DNA of 64,000 nucleotides from Polychytrium aggregatum. Its lineage: Eukaryota; Chytridiomycota; Chytridiomycetes; Polychytriales. Positions within the stretch are counted from its first letter, which is position 1, and every line of letters begins with the position of its first letter. This document shows positions 21,332 through 47,536 of this stretch, piece after piece. Location: NCBI RefSeq assembly GCF_025602895.1, contig NW_026516322.1, positions 1 to 64,000 of the forward strand, read 5' to 3'. The notes beneath the pieces are model-generated. The model ran no database searches, had not been told where the DNA came from, and saw only the letters and a program-made list of their open reading frames with translations. The position numbers were made by a program, and so were the translations under genes.

Positions 21332-24038
21332 ATGATCGACATGCTCGAGTCGCTCTCCACACCCACGCCGTCGTTTCTGTGGTCCTGCGCTGGCGTTGCT
21401 ACTGCCCTCGGCGTCCTCTGGTACGTCGAGAGCAGACGCTCCGCTGTGCGCTCCGTCTCCCAGTTTCCATGCCCATCCAAGGTATGTCGTCTGCAAGTGC
21501 TGCCTCGGGCAGATGGACCAGAGGATCGACACGCATTATCGCTGCTGCCGTCCCCGTGCATGATGGCAATCTCGCTCGGTTGTAGAGCGCAAACCTCGCT
21601 CGGCCGCTGACCATGCAACCCGCATCCAGATGCATCCGCTTTACGGAAACCTCCTGGATCTTGTGCCCTGGGAGGACCTCGTCAACGCCGACGTTTCCCA
21701 GTTCAACTTTTGTCTCAATCGCCTCTCGCAAAAATGCGACGACAAGGATAGTTTCTTCCGTGTGCATGTCTACGCTCCCTGGTTCCCGCTGCATCGAGTG
21801 ATGGTCATCCCCCGAAACGCCGATGTTGTGCAAGAGCTGCTCTCGGCAAAGCATGCTCCGTTCCTCAACAAGAGCAAAGCATACGTTCCTATCAAGATGT
21901 ACTTTGGGGACGGTCTGCTCACCAACATGGGCGATGTTTGGAAGCACAGTCGAAAGGAGGTCGAGAAGGGCTTCCGTCTGGAGAGCCTGCGCTACAGCGC
22001 CGTCGCAATCGGAACCCTGGCCGACCGCCTCATCGAAAGATGGCTGAGCAACCCGCTCGTCTATCAAGACAACTGGTTTGACGCCAAGACCGACATGCTC
22101 TCGTAAGTGCTGTTGAATGTCCGGCCGGATAGCATTCGATGGGCATGTCGCCCCGGATGGCATGGATAACGCTTCGCGCACCCCCGAGGCTCTGGAATTC
22201 TCACCCGCCTCCCTTTGGCATGCCTAGCTTCACGTTCGATGTCATTTGCGAGGTTGGATTCGGATATGACGAGAGTGTTCGCAAGGAACTCACGCTCGAA
22301 AGTCCGCATGAGCTTTTCAAAACCCTCAATACGGGCATCGGGCGAATCGGCCGGTATGAACCGTTGTCTCGATCTCTCATGTGCTGGGTATCAATGCGAG
22401 CTTGGGCACTGAATCTCGCTAGCAGCCAAAGTACTGACTCCAAAATGGATTTGCCCCCTGGGATGATGCGAACTACCCGATACAAAATGCAACAGCCAAG
22501 GGACCGATCAGCTCCTCATGCATATCCCCTTCACCCCCTTGAATATGTCGCTGCGGCGAGCCCAACGCGTTCTCGACGGCTTCATCCAAAAGCTCATCGA
22601 ACGACGTCTCGAGGCCCTCAAAGTGGATCGCACGGCCCACCACGGGACTCTTATCGACGCCATCGTCGATATCGATGCCGACGGCAACCCGGTTCTGCCA
22701 ATGAAGCAAATGATTTCTGAGATCAAAGTAAGTCGACGCCACGCGGCAGCGAAGGACTTGAATGCTCCTCCCCATCTCAATGCCGTGGCTGCTGATCCTG
22801 TTGCTGCTGTTGCTGCTGTTGCTGCTGTTGCTGTGGTTATTTCATTCGTGCCCGTGGTCTGGTTGTCATTGGTGCTTCGCACACTGCCGACGCACAAGCA
22901 GCGCTCAGTACTGCTCCGTGTTCGCCTCGCCGTCGATAGCACGAACCCAATCTGACCATTTTCCCTGGGCTCGCGTGCCATACTGTAGATCCTAATGTTT
23001 GCTGGGCATGATACCACGTAAGTGGCACCGTCACGGGAGATGCATAGGCGACATTATTGCCCCGCTGACAGCAAGCCACGCAGCTGACAGTTTGATCCTT
23101 CATGCATCACACAGCGCCAACTCCCTCGGCTGGGCCATCTATCTGCTCACGCAGCATCCCGACTCTCATCGACGCCTGCTGGAGGAGATTGACCAATATT
23201 TGCCCAACAACAAGTATCCCACATTTGACGATGTCGAGAGTATGCCTTTCCTCAATGGCGTGATCCGCGAGGTATGGAACTGAGGTGCAATCTTATCAAT
23301 CGGTCTGTGCTAACCAAGACAGCGTGTGCGTGCTCGCCCTTCAATGGCCTCGCTGAGTAACTGACAAGCACCTCTCCTCCCCTGATGCCGACAGACACTG
23401 CGCCTGTTCCCGCCCGCGAATGCTGGACGTATGCCCACACGAGATTTGAACATTGGCGGATATCAGGTCAAGAAAGGGACCGAATTGTTTGTGTTTACGG
23501 CTGTCCTCCAGCGAGACCCGCGTTATTTTGAGAATCCCGATAGCTTCCTCCCGGAGCGGTGGCTTCCTGACTCCACCTTGCACATGGAACGCAAAGCCTA
23601 CCTGCCCTTCTCGCTTGGTAAGAGTGATACTATCGGCTGCAATGGGCTGGTTTCGCGGCCGGCCGAGCGACTCGGCAGCCATATGCGCATTTGCGTGCCA
23701 TTTGCCAACCTGGATTGTTGTTGCTCGCGATGCCAACCGGTCACGCCTTGCATTTCCGACCCCTCATTTGCCTACAGGGCCTCGCAACTGTGTTGGCATG
23801 AAGCTTGCCCTTCTTGAAGAGCGGATCCTGCTCGTCCGGCTGATGCAGCGCCTCAACTTCACCTACAACTCCGAGCTCGGACAGCCCAAGTGGAGCTTTG
23901 GTGAGCACCAGAGATGCATTTGCTGGTGTGCTTGTGCTGACATGGCGCTCCTGTTCACTGACACGACTTTTGGCGAATCCAACCCCAGATCTCACCACCG
24001 GCCCCGAAGCCGTGATGGTCAAGGTGTCAGCCAAGTAG
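21332..24038 (+). CDS. Cytochrome P450 monooxygenase
   Basis: Haem-thiolate monooxygenase, probably anchored in the endoplasmic reticulum by the hydrophobic N-terminal segment FLWSCAGVATALGVLWYV. Model: join(21332..21481, 21630..22102, 22228..22353, 22496..22727, 22989..23017, 23115..23271, 23395..23617, 23778..23900, 23989..24038), 1563 nt, 520 residues, with all phases closing. Key motifs are HPLYGNLLDL near the N-terminus, I-helix AGHDTT (residues 332-337) encoded by a 29-nt exon, the K-helix ExxR as ETLR (389-392) across a splice, and the haem loop FSLGPRNCVG with the ligand Cys468, also across a splice. The length is typical. The substrate cannot be told. No biosynthetic neighbours are present; COQ9 lies convergent downstream. 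Confidence 0.93.
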
Positions 24039-24754: not shown

Positions 24755-25836
24755 TCAGGATGGTCGTCTTTGAAAGCTCACCGATAGGGGAGCAACGAAC
24801 TGCGACAAGTAACAAGATGCTACCTCTGAAGCGCTTCGTCCTACAAATGCCGTGTCCTGCAGTCGTCGGTCGAGGAACTTCCACGTCTCCGCAAATTCGG
24901 GCGAGCGGTCCTGGGTCATGAAGAGCTCTGTGAACGATTGTGTTTGCTTTGGGGTCAGCACGCAGGCAGGCCTGTCCTTCTCAAGTCGAACCAAATGCAT
25001 CCGGGGCTGCGGCTCCTGCTTCGAATATCCCGTTGTTGCGGTGCAGAGCACTCACCAGTGGAGGTATAGACAGCGGCAAGCAACGCGCGCTTAGTATACC
25101 AGTTCATCTGGAGCACATCGAGGGTATCGAACAAAGCCCGGGTGAGGATCAATGGGAGGCAACGTGAAAGCAAATCCGGAGCATTGCGGACGCAATGAAC
25201 AATTAGCGACTCCAAAAAATCGATGGACAGGGAGACAGGGCATCTTTGCAGCAAAAACAGGAATACAAGTATTACATCGACAGAACGGTCCCCGGCAATG
25301 TACCACATCTCATCGACGAGCTCTCCAAGGTTGGCGACATTGTTGGCGGCGTTCTGGGGCAGGGCCAGGAGAGCAACGGCCTCGGGCCACTTGCGGATGT
25401 ACGGGGCAGTCAGCTTCATACGGGTGATGCAGGCGGTTCTGATCTTGGCAGTGGTCTTCATGGCATTGAGATCCAGCTGGTTCATCTCGTCGCGCATGCG
25501 GACAGTCGAGTCCTTGATGAAGAACTCGACCAGCTCGATGGGGCCGCGGGGGAACAGGCCGTGGGCAACGTTGGAGTAGCCCAGAGCCTTGGATCCCTCC
25601 ATGATGGCGTCGGCCGTCCAGCCGTGGGTGGGCACAAAGTTGAGGGCGCTAACGAGGATCTTTTGGGTGGGATTATAGTGCCGCTGTTGCTGCGACTGTT
25701 GCGACTCGGCGTGCAGATGGATGTTGAAGTCAGGGGCCGAGGCTTCATGGCGGAGGGCCGACAGGGTCGAGAAATGCGTGCGCTTGAAATGCGACCAAGG
25801 ATGCGACAGCGAGATGGCTGTCCTGAAGGCCTGCAT
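24755..25836 (-). CDS. COQ9: Ubiquinone biosynthesis protein COQ9 (mitochondrial lipid-binding)
   Basis: COQ9 binds isoprenoid lipids and presents coenzyme Q intermediates to COQ7 on the matrix side of the inner mitochondrial membrane. Model: complement(join(24755..24927, 25056..25107, 25276..25836)), 786 nt, 261 residues, with phases closing. The start is followed by a basic, Ser/Thr-rich presequence (QAFRTAISLSHPWSHFKRTHFSTLSALRH) typical of mitochondrial import. Family signatures are ALNFVPTHGWTADAI, GLFPRGPIELVEFF, RMKLTAPYIRKWPEAVALLA, ELVDEMWYIAGDRSVD and, across two introns, [28 protein letters not shown]. The C-terminus after GRSASE is less certain, because a few extra residues are read before the stop. 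Confidence 0.92.
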
Positions 25837-26605
25837 GGTGGACGGTGGCTAAGGGGAGCTTCAAAGTCGAGGCGATGCCGGGCCAAGGCGTGTTCACGAG
25901 GACTGGATGGAGCAAGCAAGACCAAACGGAGTGTCAGAGTCGAAAACACACCAAGCTGCAGCGAGGCCATGGCGGGCGAGGCGAGGCGAGGCGAGGCGAC
26001 AACGCACCGACAAGCGGGTGGATCGACTTCGAGAGGACCCCGAGATCGGCTTGGAGACGATGGACGAGCACGCAGCAAACTCTTGGCCAGATCGCACAAT
26101 CAATTTTTTCCGGCCCCCTCGCGGCTGCTCATCTCGGTCACCTGAAAGTCACGTTGTATGTGGCGCAGCAAAAGTTGGAATCCGGCCGTGGTCGGTTGAC
26201 GGCATTTGGTATCGTCTTGAGCCAATTGACGGTGGTGGTGGGCAATTGGTGTTGAGGAATGACCAATTGTATCATTGTTGGAAGCTCCACTCCGATTGCG
26301 GACAAGAACCACCACCATCTGAATCTCTCTGGTTGGAAACCTAGTCAAGCGTGGCTGTGTGTCAGCGAGATGACATGATCGTTTGGCTATCAGGCAAGAC
26401 TCACCTTGACAAGATGTTTTCCCACGACTGATTGAGCGAGCGATGCGTTTCTGGATCTGAATCGAGGACGCCACTGCGCAGTATCTCTGCCAGCCCAAAA
26501 TGCGCTGGTTTTGAGGAGAATTTTTCTTCCCCAAGGGCAGAACCAGCCATCGTCGCTATTTTCTCGCCAGATGGTTCACCGCAAGCCAAAGACACCAGCC
26601 AGGCG
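25837..26605. other. COQ9 upstream region and 5' flank of truncated Fanzor
   Basis: Holds the COQ9 promoter on the minus strand and a GGCGA-type short repeat at 25977-25998. The frame leading into the Fanzor remnant is open from about 26432 but shows no Fanzor similarity before about 26606. No other gene seen. Confidence 0.5.
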
Positions 26606-27343
26606 ACCAAGTGGATCCAGAGCACCCACAAGATCCTTGGTCTGCAGCAATGGATGAGCACCACACCGAGCCCCAAGATCCCTGGGTTGGATCCCTTCCT
26701 GCAATACATTCGCCATGTATTCACTGGAGACATGCTGGAGAAACAGCTGCACTTCAGCCTGACCCGGCGACGGCGATTCAAGCGACTCGATCTCCACAGC
26801 AAGCGACAGCGCACCGTCCACGAGATGTGCAAGCAAGTCATCGACCAGGCACCAAAGGAGACCGAAGTGGTGATTGCCTTTGGGAATGCATCCTGGAAGC
26901 AAGGGAAGGGATACGCATCCAGTCCCAGGAGACTCAGGTTCGCCAAATACTTTGAGCAGTTCCACCACCACCAGAGACGACCACCAGACCGATCCGTCTC
27001 CAAGATCCATGTGTGCTCGGTGAACGAGTTCAACACATCCCAGGTGTGCTCACATTGTCGGGAAGCCAAGCGACTCGAGAAGGTCGAGCATCTTGATATC
27101 GAGAAGCCACATTATGTACGGAGCTGTGCAAGCTGCCATACGCTGTGGGATCGAGACATCAATGCCTCACGGAACATGATCTCGGTATGCCAGTCGATCA
27201 TCGCCACAGGAGATCGACCGGGTGTATTCAAGACTGTGCTTCCTAAACCAACCAAAACCACTCGATTGCCAACGAAGACAGGAGTGCAATGCCATGGCCT
27301 ACCCGCTGGGCCTACAAGTCAGTCAGCGGGTTCAGACATCTGA
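26606..27343 (+). pseudogene. Fanzor nuclease, 5'-truncated copy (C-terminal half only)
   Basis: The encoded sequence aligns by eye with the C-terminal third of the full Fanzor at 28837-31203: WMSTTPSPK, VVIAFGNASWKQGKGYASSPRR, NEFNTSQVCSHC with the alternative RuvC glutamate, a second cysteine pair in CASC, and WDRDINASRNM with the third RuvC aspartate. The first RuvC aspartate region (IGIDPG in the full copy) is absent, so it cannot be an autonomous nuclease. The frame has no stop for about 300 codons (26432-27343), but the first in-frame ATG is only at 26654. Protein similarity to the full copy is moderate, so this is a different, older family member rather than a broken duplicate. Its 3' end keeps hairpins and a terminal inverted repeat (27360-27386). 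Confidence 0.85.
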
Positions 27344-27344
27344 A
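27301..27344 (+). ncRNA. Candidate guide-RNA scaffold hairpins of truncated Fanzor copy
   Basis: Two hairpins sit back to back at the end of the frame. ACCCGCTG at 27301-27308 pairs perfectly with CAGCGGGT at 27324-27331. TTCAG at 27331-27335 pairs with CTGAA at 27340-27344 over a four-base loop. They lie 16 nt before the terminal inverted repeat, where Fanzor/TnpB elements encode their omega (f) RNA. That they are RNA structure is inference. Confidence 0.4.
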
Positions 27345-27359
27345 ACCTAGAAGGGAAAG

Positions 27360-27386
27360 TGTCCCGTTTTTTCTGGATAGACTGTA
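27360..27386 (-). repeat. Right terminal inverted repeat of the truncated element
   Basis: TGTCCCGTTTTTT followed by CTGGATAGACTGTA. It matches in reverse complement the left end at 27669-27696 (shared TAC, ATCCA and AAAACGGGACA blocks) and ends in TA. Confidence 0.8.
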
Positions 27387-27508
27387 AGCATCTTGTTCCT
27401 TGTGCATTTCGACAGTGGATGCCGGGTCGCCCATATTCTGGGCAGTCCACTTCGGGGTTGCCATCCCTCTTGGGATGGTCGATGGGAGGTGGTTGACTCC
27501 CTTGTGCA

Positions 27509-27511
<3 letters not shown>

Positions 27512-27549
<38 letters not shown>

Positions 27550-27559
27550 GTGTGTGTGT
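27512..27559. repeat. (GT)n microsatellite
   Basis: About twenty GT dinucleotides interrupted once by GCAAA, lying between the truncated element and the complete one. Confidence 0.95.
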
Positions 27560-27668
27560 GACGGCGAGAGGCTTCTCGCCTTCCCTTGGGGGTCTCTCGC
27601 CAGAGACTGCTCTTCTCGCCGACCGAGGTGGCTCCGAGAGCGCGTTTTTTCGTTCTCGCTCATGTTTT

Positions 27669-27696
27669 TACTGGCAATCCAATATAAAACGGGACA
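27669..27696 (+). repeat. Left terminal inverted repeat, with promoter motifs
   Basis: Begins TACTGGCAATCC and ends AAAACGGGACA. It contains CCAAT directly joined to TATAAAA (27683-27689), 66 bp before the transposase ATG. The terminal repeat may therefore double as the transposase promoter. Confidence 0.8.
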
Positions 27697-27754
27697 CCCA
27701 GGTTTTTGACCATTCATCGAATATTTTGTTACCCAATGTTATCGCGCGCTGGCC

Positions 27755-28651
27755 ATGACCATTCGCCACACATCCGACTTTCGCACCGCCGCATTGCGAT
27801 GCTACGCCCTCATCCATAGCCTGCGTAAGGTCGCCTCCATATTCAGTGTATCCAAGAGCACCATCCATCGATGGCACCGAGGATGCAAGCTGGATGACCC
27901 ATCCCGGGTCCCAGCTCGCAGATCCATTTTCTTCGAGCAGGCATGTCCAGTCATTCGCACCCTGATTGAACAGGACCCGTTCCAGACTGGTCCTGTGTTG
28001 CGATGCAAGCTCGAGTCCATCCTCCAGAGGAAAGTATCACTCTCACTCTGCCACACTGCCATCCACCGAGCAGGTCTCTCACACAAGAGGGCAACACACC
28101 TCTACAAGTCCAAGCGACTGGATGAGCGAGTGGCACAGTTCAGGGACCAGGTCCGCTCCATCGACCCACGACGGCTCGTTTTTGTCGATGAGACAGGGAT
28201 CAGGAAATCCATTTTTCCTCTCTACGGATACTCACCGAAGGGCGTCCCACTCCGTCAGCACCACAACATGAAGCACAAGTCTGTCTCGGCTGCATTTGCC
28301 ATCAACCACTCTGGTGTGCTGCATCGCATGTACATCCCCACATCATTCAAGACACACTCGATGGTCGAGTTCTTTGAGCGAGCGAGCTTCCCAGACGACT
28401 CTGTGATTGTGATGGACAATGTCAGCATGCACAAGACAATGGCTGTCCTGGACTGCATCGAGCGCCGAGGATGGTCAGTGATCTTCACCCCACCTGCATC
28501 GCCCGACTTCAATCCCATCGAGAACTTCTTTGGGGTTGAGTCCCCATCATTTTGGGGTTTAGTCCCCATCAATTTTGGGGTTGAGTTCCCTCCAATCAAG
28601 CCGCCGTTCTCACGTTCACATCCCTGGCTTGAACCTCTCGGCGATTTTTGA
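27755..28651 (+). CDS. DD34E (IS630/Tc1/mariner) transposase with altered C-terminus
   Basis: A 298-residue cut-and-paste transposase. An N-terminal helix-turn-helix (residues about 8-45, SLRKVASIFSVSKSTIHRWHRGC) should bind the terminal repeats. The RNase-H-like catalytic triad is complete: Asp145 in FVDETG, Asp221 in VMDNVSMHK and Glu256 in SPDFNPIENFF, with exactly 34 residues between the last two. After residue 260 the frame runs straight into three GGGG...CCCC repeats and ends in unrelated sequence, so the C-terminal helix normal after NPIE is replaced. The protein may therefore be weakened or inactive. The ATG at 27755 is the first in frame after the TATA-bearing terminal repeat. No introns. 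Confidence 0.9.
   Translation: MTIRHTSDFRTAALRCYALIHSLRKVASIFSVSKSTIHRWHRGCKLDDPSRVPARRSIFFEQACPVIRTLIEQDPFQTGPVLRCKLESILQRKVSLSLCHTAIHRAGLSHKRATHLYKSKRLDERVAQFRDQVRSIDPRRLVFVDETGIRKSIFPLYGYSPKGVPLRQHHNMKHKSVSAAFAINHSGVLHRMYIPTSFKTHSMVEFFERASFPDDSVIVMDNVSMHKTMAVLDCIERRGWSVIFTPPASPDFNPIENFFGVESPSFWGLVPINFGVEFPPIKPPFSRSHPWLEPLGDF
28529..28592. repeat. Three 22-23-bp direct repeats, each a small hairpin
   Basis: Three tandem copies of TTTGGGGTTGAGTCCCCATC with small changes. In the first two copies a GGGG/CCCC pair folds on itself; the third has GGGG with TTCCC. The array begins right after the transposase catalytic Glu codon and replaces its C-terminus. It also lies about 110 bp upstream of the Fanzor TATA box. 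Confidence 0.85.
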
Positions 28652-28701
28652 ACAGGGTCACTTCCCCAACCAGTCCGCACCAACAGGCTCCTGCTCTCGG
28701 G

Positions 28702-28707
28702 TATAAA
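28702..28707 (+). promoter_or_regulatory. TATA box of the Fanzor gene
   Basis: TATAAA in GGGTATAAATGCC, 130 bp upstream of the Fanzor ATG and past the transposase stop. This suggests Fanzor has its own transcription start. Confidence 0.5.
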
Positions 28708-28836
28708 TGCCACACCTTCCTCCTGCTGCTTTCTTCCCTCATCTCGCCTTGATCTGATCATCGCGCTATTGTACGATAAAAAAAAGTCTCTGCTCTGACC
28801 AGTACCACTGGCAGGCATCCAGCATCCTCTGCCCCC

Positions 28837-31203
28837 ATGCCTCCGAAGCGTAAGGGTACCGGTGATGGCCAGCCTCGGCCACCCAGGCCCAAGAAAGCCA
28901 AGTCACAGTCGGAGCCTGTCTCTGGTTCGTATTCTGACCCCACGCATGCTTGGTCGTCTGTTGCTCCGTCGCTCACCACCACTGCTTCTGCAGATCCAAT
29001 GGATGTCGATCCCACCGAGCCTGGTCCCTCATCTGGTCCTGTCAAGCGATGTCGCCAGTGCGATGGTACCGATCATCAGCGAAGCAACACCAACAGGTGT
29101 CCCAAATACCGGCCCCTCAAGAGTTCTGTCGTCCCTCTCGTGGATGGAAGGTCATCCGCCCCTCAGTTCAGCTGCTTCAAGCAGACGATGGATGGCTGTT
29201 GTCTCAATCCCGCTCTCCGCGACAAGACCCAGGCCACCGTCGAGGCCATGACCCAGATCCAGTTCGAGGCATCCAGGCTGCTCAACCTGCACATCCTCCG
29301 GTGCATCGAGCAGGATCTTCCCGTCCCCGTCATCTCCAAGTCCACCCCTGCTTTCGTTCGCCAATGCTTCACGATCGTCCAGGCTGGTGCTCTCTTGACA
29401 GCCAGGGACAACGAGAAATACAACGAGCATCTGGTCGCTTCCTTTCGCGACTACCAGACCACTCGACATGCAGACCTGCCTCCGGCCCCTCGTCTGCCTG
29501 ATGGTGCTCACAGTCAGCTTCTCACACTGGCTGTCAACGCCTATGCCACCAACTGCACCACCCACCTCGACCTGGCCTACTGGCGACTCCTTCGCCGCTT
29601 CTGTGCTGCCGTCTTCCCAGCCAACAAGCATAAGCACGAAGCCATCGAGGCCTGTCTCGAGCTCTTCGAGAAACCAGGGCAGACTCCACCCAAGGCCGAT
29701 CTCGAGTTCCTCTATCCAGACTTTGGCCACGTCCTGGACGAGTTTCGGTACAGCAACGACCAGGACCGCTTCCGGGCCCTTCATCGCCTCTCACACCATG
29801 TGAGAATCCTCGCCCGAGACAAGATGGTCGACAATGTCCACAAGTGGATCGACTGTGACATGCCCGCCCTCCGAGTCACCGAGTTGCAGCGCCAGACCAA
29901 GCTGGACAAGCTCACTGCCCAAGGCATTCCCTCCGACGACAAGAGGTTCACCACGGCCAAGTCTGAGCTCGGCACCACCAAGGCCAAGATCAACAAGCTG
30001 GCCGCCAGGATCAACTGGGCCCTCAAGCAGCTCGCTCTCGACACTCCTCCGTCCGTGTGCACGATGGTCCCTCTGTGCACAGCCAAGGCCAAGTATGTCA
30101 AGATCGACACCGTCACTCTCTGGGAACTCCTGGGTCCAAAGAAGCGCCTTGGACTCACCCGGGACATGCTCAAGGAAGAAGGTGAGGACGGTGTCAACAA
30201 CCAGGATCGTCTCTGGCGCAGTTGCTTCAAGCTGCGTAGTTCCCTCTTCCGTGACCGGGATATCAATCACAAGCTGTTCAACTACGAGATCAGCACCGAT
30301 GGCATTGGATGCACCATCGGCCTCGTCAAGTTTGTGCGTCGAACCGATCGCACCGAGACCTCCGAGCCTCCTCCGACTGCCGAGCAGCGTATCCAGGCCC
30401 ACATCGGCAACCCAGACCCCAACCGTACCACTTGGATTGGCATCGATCCTGGAGTCGGCTCCATCTTCACGGCGGTCATCCAAGCACCGGGCCACCAAGA
30501 CGAGGTGGTCTCGTTCTCGAATGGCCACTACCAGCACATGTGTGGCCATACGTCCGACACCAAGTGGCACAACACCATGAAGTATCGACTCAGCATCGAG
30601 ACCTGGATGGCGACCACTCCCTCGCCCAAGATGTCGTCCTCGGAGGCTTTCAAGATCCATCTCACCCATGTCCTGCGACCGGAGCTGCGAGTGCAGCTCG
30701 ACTTCCACCTTGGCAAGAAGGCCCGTCACCATCGATTCACGGGCCACAGGAGACGCCAAGTGGCCGTCGACAGGATGTGCAAGGCCGTCCTGAAGCACGC
30801 CCCGATACGGACCGATGTGGTGATCGCCTTTGGCAATGCGTCATGGCGGCAAGGCAAGGGCTATGCATCCAGCCCTCGGAGGCAGCGGTTTGCTCGGTAC
30901 TTTGAGCAATTCGAGCACCACCGACGCCGTCCCAATCACCATCACGGAAGCGTCAAGGTGGCCTCGACGAACGAGTTCAACACCTCGCAAGTGTGCTCCA
31001 AGTGCCTGGAGCCAGTTCGGTTGGAAGGACTCGATGCGCCCAGTGTTGCGAATTCCCACTTTGTCAGGAGCTGCAAGAATCCCAGCTGCCGGACAGTGTG
31101 GAATCGCGATGTCAATGCGGCGCGCAACATGATCACAGTGTGCAGGTCGATTGTGGAGATCGGAGAGCGACCGGCGGTCTTCACTCGGAGGCTGCCAAAG
31201 TGA
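28837..31203 (+). CDS. Fanzor RNA-guided DNA endonuclease (eukaryotic TnpB homologue), full length
   Basis: 788 residues, uninterrupted. The N-terminus is basic (PPKRKGTGDG and RPKKAK), a probable nuclear localisation signal. Residues 72-88 form a CxxC...H...C zinc-knuckle-like motif. The RuvC nuclease is complete: Asp537 in IGIDPGVGSIFTAVI; the canonical second site VVIAFGNAS (about 664-666) lacks glutamate; an alternative glutamate is Glu713 in TNEFNTSQVCSKC; and the third acid is Asp758 in WNRDVNAARNM. A zinc ribbon uses Cys720/Cys723 and Cys746/Cys751. This rearranged site is the reported Fanzor signature. In characterised Fanzors the protein uses an omega (f) RNA copied from the element's 3' end to cut DNA next to a short adjacent motif. 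The gene follows the transposase by 185 bp and has its own TATA box. Function here is inferred from motifs. Confidence 0.93.
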   Translation: MPPKRKGTGDGQPRPPRPKKAKSQSEPVSGSYSDPTHAWSSVAPSLTTTASADPMDVDPTEPGPSSGPVKRCRQCDGTDHQRSNTNRCPKYRPLKSSVVPLVDGRSSAPQFSCFKQTMDGCCLNPALRDKTQATVEAMTQIQFEASRLLNLHILRCIEQDLPVPVISKSTPAFVRQCFTIVQAGALLTARDNEKYNEHLVASFRDYQTTRHADLPPAPRLPDGAHSQLLTLAVNAYATNCTTHLDLAYWRLLRRFCAAVFPANKHKHEAIEACLELFEKPGQTPPKADLEFLYPDFGHVLDEFRYSNDQDRFRALHRLSHHVRILARDKMVDNVHKWIDCDMPALRVTELQRQTKLDKLTAQGIPSDDKRFTTAKSELGTTKAKINKLAARINWALKQLALDTPPSVCTMVPLCTAKAKYVKIDTVTLWELLGPKKRLGLTRDMLKEEGEDGVNNQDRLWRSCFKLRSSLFRDRDINHKLFNYEISTDGIGCTIGLVKFVRRTDRTETSEPPPTAEQRIQAHIGNPDPNRTTWIGIDPGVGSIFTAVIQAPGHQDEVVSFSNGHYQHMCGHTSDTKWHNTMKYRLSIETWMATTPSPKMSSSEAFKIHLTHVLRPELRVQLDFHLGKKARHHRFTGHRRRQVAVDRMCKAVLKHAPIRTDVVIAFGNASWRQGKGYASSPRRQRFARYFEQFEHHRRRPNHHHGSVKVASTNEFNTSQVCSKCLEPVRLEGLDAPSVANSHFVRSCKNPSCRTVWNRDVNAARNMITVCRSIVEIGERPAVFTRRLPK

Positions 31204-31304
31204 TCTGTTTTATTTCTTGTGGCTTTGCTTGACGCAAGCACAGCACATACTACCTGTTCATGGAAACGGCTATATTGTCCCGTTTTTTTTCTGAATAAAG
31301 TGTA
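31092..31304 (+). ncRNA. Candidate Fanzor omega RNA (fRNA) scaffold region
   Basis: The stretch covers the last codons of Fanzor, the 100-nt noncoding tail and the right terminal repeat. The same stretch survives at 47332-47536, where the reading frame is dead. There the coding part is about 90% alike and the noncoding tail about 80-85% alike, by eye. A five-base stem at 31226-31230/31236-31240 (TGCTT, GACGC loop, AAGCA) is kept in the other copy as GGCTT/GAGCT, where both base changes leave pairs as G-U. Location and conservation fit a TnpB/Fanzor guide scaffold; its exact ends are unknown. Confidence 0.55.
31276..31304 (-). repeat. Right terminal inverted repeat of the Fanzor element
   Basis: TGTCCCG, a run of T, then CTGAATAAAGTGTA. 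The reverse complement matches the left end, and it terminates in TA (31303-31304). The relic at 47516-47536 shares the outer AATAAAGTGTA, which fixes this edge. Confidence 0.82.
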
Positions 31305-31757
31305 ACAAGAAATTATTCATAGTGTCCAGGACACGAAAATCGAGCTTTTGGAGAAACAGCGACGCGCAGTCAGCGGCCCCTTGCCTCTTCGCCTTCCCTC
31401 TTGCCTCTTTCGCCTTTCCTTCTGTGCTGTCTTTTCTCTTGGCCGGCTGGCACGTGTCGTCACACAGACCCACCTATCCGCGCACAAAGACCACTTCCGA
31501 CAAGCGCCTGCACTGGATCCGCAACAAAGGTGCCCTTCAGCATCAAGCCATATTTTTTGCCTGAGCGTGGGGAGCCGCAAAGGGCCGGCCTCAATCCAGG
31601 TCTGGGACCGCCAACGCCCCGCTGTTCTCGCTCCTCTCTCCATCCGCTGCATTCACCCCCCGTCCGTCTGCTGTACTTGCCGGCCGACGACACCGAACGA
31701 ACACCGAACGGACACCGAACGAACATCCGGCCGCACAGCGACAGCATCCCCTTCGCC
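31305..31757. other. Upstream region of the Mg2+ channel gene
   Basis: Right flank of the Fanzor element, then the presumed promoter of the downstream CorA gene. No separate gene seen. Confidence 0.6.
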
Positions 31758-34075
31758 ATGCATCCCGGACGCCACCCCCGATCTGCCTCCGAGATTTCCT
31801 TCGAAGTGCCCAAGAGGGACAGCTGTGTCCCAGCCGACGATCGCTCCGAGGTCTTTTCACCCATCCATACCTTTGGCATCGATTACGCCGCCATAGAGAA
31901 ATGCATCCTCGATTACTGCCCGACGCCGCCTTGGACCCAGATGGACCACAAAGCGTCCGAGAGCACTTACTGCGTCCCCGTCGACGGCGATTTGGCTCTC
32001 AAGAAAAGCCCATCTTGGGCTGGCCTCAAGGTACGAGGGGACAGAGCCACGTCTCTGTTTGGCTGCTGCCAATGCCAGATCGAGAGCCTGTGATGCGCCT
32101 ACGCTGGGCTCTGAGTCGATGGCTCGGTCGGGAGATGCACTGGCATTGGCGCTCATCCTCCCTCTGTGCCGACAGAACCGAGCGAGCCGGACCTCAAATG
32201 CGCCAAAAAACAGATTCACCTTCTATTCCGAGACAACAAATATCCTCAAGGCCGGCTCGTTCGGCGCCCTGCCTCTCGGGCAGTTCGGCGGCTCCATCAA
32301 GGAGTTTCTGAGCACCAAGCCCTTCTGGTTGGATATCTGCGACGTCAGCGATGTTGAAATGGATCAGTTGAGCCAGGTAAGAGCACCGAGCAATAGCATC
32401 GATCATGGGCGTATGGTACTATCCTTACCAGCTGATACTGCGCCCCGGGATGCCAATCTGCCTCTGACTCGCTCCGCCCCACCACAGCTCTTTGGCATCC
32501 ACCCCCTGACCGCTGAGGATATTCTTGCGCAAGAGACCCTCGAAAAATGCGACACCTTCCCGAACTACTACTTTGTGTGCATTCGGACATTTAGTGAGGA
32601 CTACAGCAGCCCAAAGTTCTTCAAGGCATTGAATGTCTACATGGTCGTCTTCAAAAACTGTGTTCTTTCGGTACGAGTCGCATCGAGCCGTCCTCAGCAT
32701 CCGTGTCGAGTGTCGAGAGGCCGACCCGGCGCAGGAGTTTGCCTGTGGGCCACTGGGTAGATACACGACTGTCTCTGACTGGCTGTTACCCCACCTTCGT
32801 TGCTGCAGTTTCATTCTCTGGAGACATCCCATCACAACAACGTGCTCCAGCGCATTGCTCATCTCAAAGCTCACCAAGTCACCGTCTCGCCGGGTGTGTT
32901 GTATAGCTGCTCTGGCAGATAGGGATCATGTCCTTGGATGGCATCGAACGCTCATGATTGATACGAGGCGCCAATCGGAGCCCAATGGTGCTCAATGGCT
33001 CTCGAGAGTGCTCAAGGGTGATGCTGATGCATAGCCATCGCCTTCTTCCAGATTGGATCAACTACGGCATCATCGACGACATCATCGACTCGTTCTCCCC
33101 CTTGATCGAAGGCATCGAGGACGAAACCGAAGCCATCGACGATCTCGTGCTGATATTGAAGGCGAGCGAGCAAAGCGACATGTTGCGGAGGTGAGTAGCT
33201 TGGGCCAAGGAGACGCTCGCATGTTGCTACGTGACGCCCATGTTTGCTTTCGGCGTACTTGGTGCCGTGCCATTCTGCCTTTGAGGCTTCAATCACCCAC
33301 TGGTACATCGTTTCCTGATGAATCATACGACCCAGCCGAGCAACTCACGGGTTCATTTCTTGCCGCCTTGCTCGCCTTCCCATCCAGAATCGGGGAGGCC
33401 CGACGCAAAACCCTGCAGGTTGTGAAGTTGTTGCAGTCCAAGGCCGATTTGCTGAAAGCTCTCATCAAGCGGGCCTCAACAGTGATATCCGCGGACAGCA
33501 GCATTGTGCTCTATCTTGGTGATATTCACGGTAAGGGAGACAAGCGCTATCCAGAAGCGGCGTCTTTGCAATGTTGTTCACAGAGCCCCCTGGAGAACCG
33601 CCCTAATCAACCTTGCTCTATCCCGTTCGTCCCGGATACGCTGTAGATCACATTGCCGCTATGCAGCACAATCTGTCGTATCACGAAACCACCCTGTCAA
33701 CCTGCCACTCGAACTATCTTGCTCAGATCAGTATCGAAATCACACAGTCGGCCAACCGAACAAATGACTCCACAATGAACCTCACCCTCCTGGCCAGTAT
33801 TCTCGTTCCTCTGAACATTATCACAGGTAACTCGGCTGCAGTCGTGGTGTCACGCGCATGACACCCAGCAATCTGCTGCCGCCTTTCGTTCGCTGTTCCT
33901 TTGCGCAACGCAGTTGCTGACGACAAGATAAACGCTTTCTGTCGCAGGTCTTTGGGGCATGAATGTCAGGGTCCCGGGTGGCGAAGAAGAGGGCCTCACA
34001 TGGTTCTACGGAATCGTCGGGAGCATGGTCGCGATTGTCCTTATCTGTTTCTTTGTCTTCCGGAAGCTAATATAG
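31758..34075 (+). CDS. CorA/Alr1/Mnr2-type magnesium channel
   Basis: A two-transmembrane divalent-cation channel of the CorA superfamily; fungal members sit in the plasma membrane (Alr1/2) or the vacuole (Mnr2). Model: join(31758..32030, 32176..32376, 32488..32670, 32809..32893, 33052..33190, 33388..33530, 33647..33826, 33948..34075), 1332 nt, 443 residues, with all phases closing. The cytosolic part has FWLDICDVSDVEMDQLSQLFGIHPLTAEDIL, the usual NPLTxEDI-type region, and DWINYGIIDDIIDSFSPLIEGIEDE. The first membrane helix LLASILVPLNIITG runs into the signature GMN within GLWGMNVRVPG. The second helix is YGIVGSMVAIVLICFFVF, ending RKLI. At 443 residues it is short for Alr1/Mnr2, lacking their long N-terminal extension. 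It converges with the gene at 34329-36807, leaving 253 bp. Confidence 0.92.
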
Positions 34076-46207: not shown

Positions 46208-47331
46208 GGCTCAGAGATAGGATGTGCTGATGGATACGGCGGTGAGAGGAAATGTCCCGGGGACGTGAGTTTGGTTGCGCAGGGATGAGGGCCGACTGTA
46301 GCAGTCGGAGCAAAACACGGATGACAGGACGACGGACACCCGAATCTCGCACGCATTGATTGTGCTGTGATGGCGAATGGGGGAGGGGATGCCGACGACG
46401 GGGGGTATGATGGCGGAAGGATGCAAACAGCAGAGTCGATCGAGGAAGCGCCAGAATCGCGAGGTGTCCTCAATGGAATGAGGCAGGTTGGAGACGAGTG
46501 GATGGCGACCGAGGAAGGCACCAGACGGGAAGCACACGAGTGCATATGCTGCAGCTGAGCTGCTTCGAGACATCTCGAGTGCCAAAAGCACGATTGCATC
46601 GTCAAGTTGCGTCTTGGTTCACCCAGCGCTCCATCTGGCCAGCCATCCAAACGGGCCAAGGCAAGCCCAGAAGAACGCCAGATGCGGTGCAGGGTATGGG
46701 ATGCGATAGTGCGATGAAATACCTGCAACGAGTAGAAGATGGACCTGGAGACCGAGGACGGGTGACCGAGGACGGGAGATCGAGGCCAAGCAGACAAACA
46801 GGCGAACAGGACGCTGGCAGACGAGACCGATGGGCGGAGACGGAAGGAACAGAAAAAAAAGGTTCAGGATTGCTCGCGGGCGACGAGAGGCGGGCTGGTT
46901 GGCTGGCTGGTTGGATTGTTGGAGCAGGGGAACGAGAAGCAGCGAGGAGTAGCGAGGAGCAGCGAGAAGGCCACAAGGCACAGGCGACGAGGGAGCGAGA
47001 GGAAACAAGGACGGCCATTGCTGACGAACCAGTTTCGAATTGGTTTTTGTGGCCGGGCACTCGCCAATCAGCGCGCGGAGCGCAAAGCTTCGAGCAGACA
47101 AGGCCGGCGGTCAACAGGGTGTGTGCTCGTGCATCGCTTGGCAGGGCAGTGCGGCAGATGCACGCGCCGCGCCAGGGAGCGCGTGCACTCGGGGCAAGCA
47201 AGGGACGCGGCTCGATCCTGCGGGGCAAGGGCGATGGACGGCTCGATCCAGGCAACAAGGACGGGGAGTGGCTTGACAAACACGATTCGTCCCCTCGCTC
47301 GATCAACAACCGTGATGGCGAATTGCATCCA
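46208..47331. other. VTC1 upstream region; no gene recognised
   Basis: About 1.1 kb with a short A run near 46855 and open frames on both strands that lack motifs. The VTC1 promoter is expected in the left part. The right edge abuts the Fanzor relic. Confidence 0.55.
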
Positions 47332-47536
47332 GACAGTGTGGAATCGCGACGTCAATGCGGCGGGCAACAGGATCACAGTGTGCAGGTCGATTGTGGAGAC
47401 CGGAGAATAACAGGTGGTGTTCACTCGGAGGCTGCCAAAGTGATCTGTTTTATTTCGTATAGCTTGGCTTGACGCGAGCTCATCACATACTACATGTTCA
47501 TGGAGGCGGGTGTGGTGTCCCACAGAATAAAGTGTA
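47332..47536 (+). pseudogene. Fanzor element 3'-end relic
   Basis: A 205-bp fragment matching 31092-31304: the final 36 or so codons (WNRDVNAA with the third RuvC aspartate), the noncoding tail and the right terminal repeat, whose T run is deleted. A TAA at 47407 ends the frame early, and Met/Arg positions are altered. The left break at GACAGTGTGG has no terminal repeat, so the fragment is 5'-truncated. It lies between VTC1 and VTC4 without touching either coding region. Confidence 0.88.

Follow-up and report, generated by a model that had tools for sequence, protein, structure and literature searches.

The window analysed here, 64,000 nucleotides of Polychytrium aggregatum DNA (contig NW_026516322.1, positions 1 to 64,000 of the forward strand), contains a transposon of the IS630/Tc1/mariner type with a body from 27671 to 31302 and a TA on either side, at 27669–27670 and 31303–31304. 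Between imperfect terminal inverted repeats (TIRs) it holds an open reading frame (ORF) for a C-terminally truncated transposase, followed by an uninterrupted gene for a Fanzor, a class of CRISPR-like RNA-guided nucleases (Table 1). The transposase matched the profiles DDE_3 (3.5e-21) and IS630 NF033545 (1.3e-34), and its catalytic triad, D145, D221 and E256, is of the DD34E type. The Fanzor ORF comprises 788 codons with no internal stop, and its product matched PF07282 at 6.4e-09, above the cut-off. The Fanzor signature given in the available text of PMC3627910, D-X(125,275)-[TS][TS]-X2-C4 zinc finger-X(5,50)-RD, was found as D537, T716-S717, C720/C723/C746/C751 and R757-D758; the marks named in the available text of PMC10711439, a DPG in RuvC-I and a Glu six residues ahead of the first CxxC, were also present (DPG 537–539, E713, C720). 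A stricter search expression in the latter text, with 120–160 residues from D to E and a CxxC spacing of 12–18, is aimed at Fanzor-related TnpBs and does not define Fanzor1; the protein falls outside it, as D537 and E713 are 176 apart and the second Cys pair is a CX4C lying 22 residues past the first. In searches for Fanzor homologues outside the genome, none of the 7998 candidates scored reached an E-value of 1e-3 and viral contigs gave none; among sequences of solved structures the Fanzor had one match at E 0.69, with SpuFz1 (8gkh) at 0.25 and LaTranC at 0.13, none of them significant, and the transposase had no match. At its N-terminus the Fanzor also has a zinc-knuckle-like CX2C..H..C (residues 72–88), and a further Cys that most copies have is replaced by Ser in the window copy; 5 of 15 copies have Ser there.

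Table 1. Features of the transposon and its right flank, in window coordinates
Feature	Position	Strand	Evidence
T and left TA; predicted target-adjacent motif TTA, TA being the duplicated target	27668..27670	+	199 of 209 left ends; empty site
Left TIR, imperfect	27671..27702	+	TIR scoring; conserved in copies
Transposase ORF, IS630/Tc1 type, 298 residues, DD34E, C-terminally truncated past residue 260 of the 310-residue form	27755..28651	+	ORF, profiles, copies
Three 22-nt repeats within the truncated transposase frame	28529..28595	+	Repeat search
TATAAATG, possible Fanzor promoter element, 135 nt upstream of the ATG	28702..28709	+	In 16 of 19 other loci; function predicted
Fanzor gene, 788 residues, uninterrupted; D537 (DPG), E713, D758	28837..31203	+	ORF, profile, motif
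Right 217 bp, comprising the 3' end of the Fanzor and the right end, retained in all three ghosts that were read; presumed guide-RNA scaffold inside	31088..31304	+	Ghost sequences
Right TIR, imperfect	31271..31302	-	TIR scoring; copies
AATAAA in right TIR, possible polyadenylation signal	31294..31299	+	In 19 of 19 other loci; function predicted
Right copy of the TA target duplication	31303..31304	+	Copies, empty site
Presumed guide of this copy, 15 nt at the start of the right flank	31305..31319	+	By analogy with SpuFz1

To place the edges of the element we compared it with its copies in the genome from which the window comes (64.7 Mb, 418 contigs). Alignments started within 27662–27677 in 43 of the 50 loci retrieved with the Fanzor and transposase protein queries; the other seven were the window and its C90 counterpart (each twice), L014 and L015, in which the left part is absent, and L030, which starts at 27686. 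On the right, alignments stopped at 31302–31306 in 18 of the 20 loci reaching that end, the other two being the window and C90. The sequence conserved among copies starts with a T at 27668 and ends with the TA at 31303–31304. The TIRs share an inner inverted identity of 11 nt (AAAACGGGACA), with weak similarity in their outer parts; their score was matched or exceeded by 2 of 5000 random TA pairs from the window, and they were absent from the output of a general repeat search of the window. An empty site in L058 (contig C402) was 93% identical to the joined flanks in an alignment of 336 columns and contained a single TA, which supports the TA as the duplicated target, as expected of an IS630/Tc1/mariner transposon. 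This site is paralogous, not allelic, belonging to another copy of a repeated segment that holds a second Fanzor remnant (see below); about 25 bp separate the insertion from that segment's edge (L058 2085–2420; window 27369–27668 plus 31305–31326). In a further copy, L012, the left terminal bases are swapped for TTTCGGTCG, the same as the first nine bases of its own right flank. The original prediction, a DD34E transposon flanked by TA with a full-length Fanzor in it, is borne out by PF07282, the Fanzor signature, the triad and the exact boundaries; the terminal repeats that it had noticed are real, if imperfect, and conserved in the copies, and the TnpB/Fanzor profile similarity on which it had staked the 788-residue protein was found.

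It had also taken the element to be complete, with both genes whole; this is wrong for the transposase, although its triad is intact. The window transposase follows the long form up to residue 260, departs from it at the word TTTGGGG and lacks the last 50 of 310 residues; its residues 261–298 are unrelated to the long form and arise where the frame runs on through a 22-nt tandem repeat, and other copies reach residue 310. The complete transposase of an autonomous IS630/Tc1 element is thus absent from this copy. Among the 129 matches listed for a 310-residue query, 79 covered residue 1 to 305–310, nine of these with a stop, and 32 ended at residue 261–266, like the window copy; a stop-free 310-residue transposase was present at at least 70 other places. 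When 20 loci were picked by Fanzor similarity, nine had the long C-terminus, ten (the window included) the truncated one and one no transposase, the classes being assigned from locus translations and the 310-residue search. As the window copy is missing the C-terminal 50 residues, it is probably non-autonomous, and it is probably mobilised in trans by the full-length transposase of other copies. We consider it quite improbable that the truncated form is functional and the window copy autonomous: although 32 listed matches share this end, and the ratio of nonsynonymous to synonymous substitution rates (dN/dS) for the shared part is 0.197 in the truncated class (n = 32), the frame leaves the long form four residues past the catalytic Glu256, the match to the IS630 profile stops at 269 of 299, not 280, full-length copies could act in trans, and the shared part could stay alike through exchange between copies. 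The low ratio of the truncated class would be expected either if the short form has a function or if these copies exchange sequence with full-length ones.

The search for further copies by their terminal ends, which the original prediction had proposed, revealed a large family. Exact left ends occurred 209 times in the genome (199 with the preceding T and 10 without it) and exact right ends 240 times, the right-end pattern additionally requiring a non-T 15 bases past the TA. For 56 of 87 listed left ends a listed right end could be matched; 44 of these pairs span 3.39–3.79 kb, and 12 are short, with discrete sizes of 284–314, 384–386 and 1114–1115 bp. Three short copies were read, and in each the first 100 bp are fused to the last 217 bp at an identical junction; we call these ghosts. 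The window holds the right half of a ghost-like copy at 47329–47521, its match starting at most 2 bases from the point where the 316-bp ghosts have their internal junction; the left half was not seen.

Protein searches of the genome scored the best 57 of 1268, 132 of 721 and 128 of 537 candidates, and copy numbers from them are lower bounds, biased toward good copies. All 57 scored Fanzor places, the window included, span residues 1–788 or 2–788 in a list that favours good copies, and 51 of them are without an in-frame stop. For dN/dS each gene was measured in copies picked by the other gene, which avoids selection on the property tested; the sets omit the duplicates L006, L018, L027, L035, L042, L050 and L054, and L051, L052 and L056–L062 lie outside them. 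The ratio was 0.295 for the Fanzor (24 copies, codons 1–355) and 0.211 for the transposase (13 copies, codons 1–255), and these values of about 0.2–0.3 point to purifying selection on both genes. To judge from the 51 open frames of 57 and the dN/dS of about 0.3, the intact Fanzor is a plausible candidate for an active RNA-guided nuclease. An extinct family, with relic copies and an inactive Fanzor, seems unlikely: the copies are about 4% apart and stops occur in 6 of 57 Fanzor and 9 of 79 transposase places, but most scored copies, in lists that favour good ones, keep uninterrupted frames, and dN/dS is well under 1 in the cross-selected sets.

In homologous contig pairs that both carry the element, it generally diverged more than its flanks: 1.07% versus 0.12% in L002/L006, 0.28% versus 0.07% in L026/L027, 1.27% versus 0.14% in L034/L035, 1.16% versus 0.00% in L039/L042, 1.83% versus 0.85% in L040/L050 and 2.37% versus 0.20% in L053/L054; L017/L018 had no differences. 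Between the window (26254–32703) and C90 (L010/L048) the element differs by 3.58%, and 1398 bp of right flank are 99.86% identical; the left flank, which contains the second Fanzor remnant, differs by several percent. The element differences are arranged in tracts; either copies underwent gene conversion or the consensus is in error within repeats, as an artefact of polishing. We rejected these allelic pairs as proof of homing, as 8 of 10 homologous filled pairs surfaced because both members carry the element, and three joined-flank searches found no empty site.

The flanks of the family carry a one-sided signature. Besides the 199 of 209 exact left ends, we examined flank logos built from the first 100 of 240 right ends and the first 100 of 165 left ends (the left-flank pattern for these 165 requiring a non-A at −6), with the strings collapsed to 87 distinct right and 80 distinct left flanks. 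T occupied −1 in 76 of the 80 left flanks, against a background of 12.9% T before TA in the window, and A or T occupied −2 in 62, against 48% before TTA in the window. On the right, +1 was A in 14, C in 29, G in 27 and T in 17 of the 87 sites, with no matching preference for A; CAG at +1 to +3 was mildly enriched (12 of 87 against 2.3% background) and may reflect insertion beside the ends of other elements that start TACAG. Among the 20 loci picked by Fanzor similarity an A preceded the left TA at two independent sites (L002/L006 and L008), in which the right TA was missing too. Ghosts had the T at 12 of 15 named places, the exceptions being C61 and C101, which share the same flank, and C358. 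We rejected the possibility that the T is part of the element, since a T already precedes the single TA of the L058 empty site (one site, within a T run).

Were the target preference symmetric, A would be favoured at +1; with A at 14 of 87 sites the right flank shows no such preference. The position of the T matches that of a Fanzor target-adjacent motif (TAM), for which SpuFz1 is the precedent: in the available text of PMC10432273 the conserved CA plus the TA of SPu-1 equals the measured TAM CATA. By this analogy we predict a TAM of TTA, and a motif on the left combined with a guide on the right could leave a one-sided pattern. An insertion preference of the transposase, with the Fanzor a cargo of other use that takes no part in the persistence of insertions, is a somewhat unlikely explanation. 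In its favour, the outer parts of the TIRs differ between left and right, so that an oriented preference is possible, and ghosts and truncated copies mostly carry the T too; yet a symmetric strand-transfer complex should give A at +1, where 14 of 87 sites compare with the 12.9% background, and a bystander role fits poorly with purifying selection on the Fanzor in transposase-picked copies (0.295).

We therefore favour, as the probable reading, a copy with its Fanzor intact and its transposase truncated that belongs to a large IS630/Tc1-type family and is moved in trans, with TTA-dependent RNA-guided cutting and repair. Under this proposal the full-length transposase of other copies would cut and paste family members at TA. 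The RNA of the Fanzor would cross the right end, with its scaffold within about 31088–31304, and extend into the flank, which would serve as guide; for SpuFz1 a guide of 14–15 nt is given in the available text of PMC10432273. The AATAAA lies five bases from the flank, so that a transcript cleaved and polyadenylated in the ordinary way would have its end inside the flank. The T run ahead of the AATAAA would halt RNA polymerase III before the guide. The complex of Fanzor and RNA would then cut a matching site that has TTA ahead of it and no element, and the insertion would be restored or spread when the break is repaired from a template that bears the element.

Several results weigh against this proposal or fail to support it. 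The one-sided T could stem from an asymmetric transposase. None of three joined-flank searches found an empty allele; two (L013, L011) gave a second filled locus and the third (L020) none, and the only empty site is paralogous, with its T inside a T run. The AlphaFold2 model of the Fanzor was unusable (mean predicted local distance difference test score 36.6, predicted template modelling score 0.24), and RNA from the right end did not fold convincingly better than shuffles (z −0.38 and −1.42), which speaks neither for nor against the proposed mechanism. Synonymous divergence in the last 39 Fanzor codons was 0.0265 against 0.0970 overall, the sixth lowest of 58 windows; we rejected this low diversity at the 3' end as proof of an RNA, as two other stretches of the ORF were equally low. 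Nuclease activity, guide RNA and motif are predictions from sequence.

This family bears on the role of Fanzors for their transposons; according to the available text of Saito et al. (PMC10432273), genetic removal of multiple Fanzor copies would be needed to establish that role. With its hundreds of copies, two transposase classes, ghosts and sharp flank signature, the family yields a direct prediction, a TAM of TTA with the right flank as guide, and offers a natural comparison of copies with and without each gene. Tentatively, and with less confidence than in the proposal itself, we suggest that the insertions may document RNA-guided restoration of copies as it happens naturally in a eukaryote, persisting where the left flank offers TTA. 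A cut-and-paste transposon would thereby become a self-copying one, ghosts and truncated copies would share the machinery in trans, and Fanzor breaks would leave conversion tracts.

The surroundings of the element include a second, distinct Fanzor remnant at 26432–27387, which is 5'-truncated, 52% identical to the first over 216 residues and matches PF07282 at 4.2e-10; its right end (..CTGTA, about 27387) lies 280 bp upstream of the element. Neighbouring host genes at 23386–23814, 25207–25650 (minus strand) and 32059–32757 matched cytochrome P450 (9.2e-20), the COQ9 N-terminus (2.3e-08) and, weakly, CorA (0.001, below cut-off); the P450 gene is split over reading frames. Rfam and tRNA scans of the window gave no match. 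In a PF07282 search of the genome, the best 150 of 663 candidates scored fell into classes of about 70, 61, 52, 44–47 and 43.5 bits, so that more than one Fanzor lineage is likely in this genome; classes of up to 70.5 bits and open frames of up to 977 codons suggest further lineages.

Among the titles and abstract openings listed by the literature searches, none described this family or a genome-wide flank logo of a Fanzor transposon. Bacterial TnpB (NF040570, NF038281) resembles the window Fanzor in its zinc-finger/RuvC-III end (NF040570, 9.8e-06) and in the proposed logic of cutting empty sites; the NF040570 score of 25.1 is, however, below the cut-off of 100, and the window Fanzor has its Glu in the alternative position and a DDE transposon as host. 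The remaining comparisons rest on the available text of PMC10432273 and PMC3627910. For GtFz1 (PMC10432273) the measured TAM, TTAAN, begins with TTA like the motif predicted here, a likeness by description only, and that text reports that no inverted repeats or transposase were found at its locus. SPu-1 of Spizellomyces punctatus, which carries SpuFz1 (PMC3627910, PMC10432273), shares with the window element an intronless Fanzor gene (Fanzor1 in SPu-1), TIRs, a TA target and right-end ghosts. Conserved bases lie outside the left TA in both, CA there and T here; SPu-1 is described as having no transposase, whereas the window element encodes one, and for SpuFz1 the activity, RNA and TAM (CATA) were measured, whereas here they are predicted, with the motif TTA. 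Mariner-type elements carrying Fanzor1 have been in the literature since 2013 (PMC3627910); as here, a Mariner/Tc1-type transposase is followed in them by a Fanzor gene between TIRs, flanked by TA. What sets the window family apart from them is its 209 exact left ends, two transposase classes, ghosts and flank signature; it is an unusually amplified case of this published kind.

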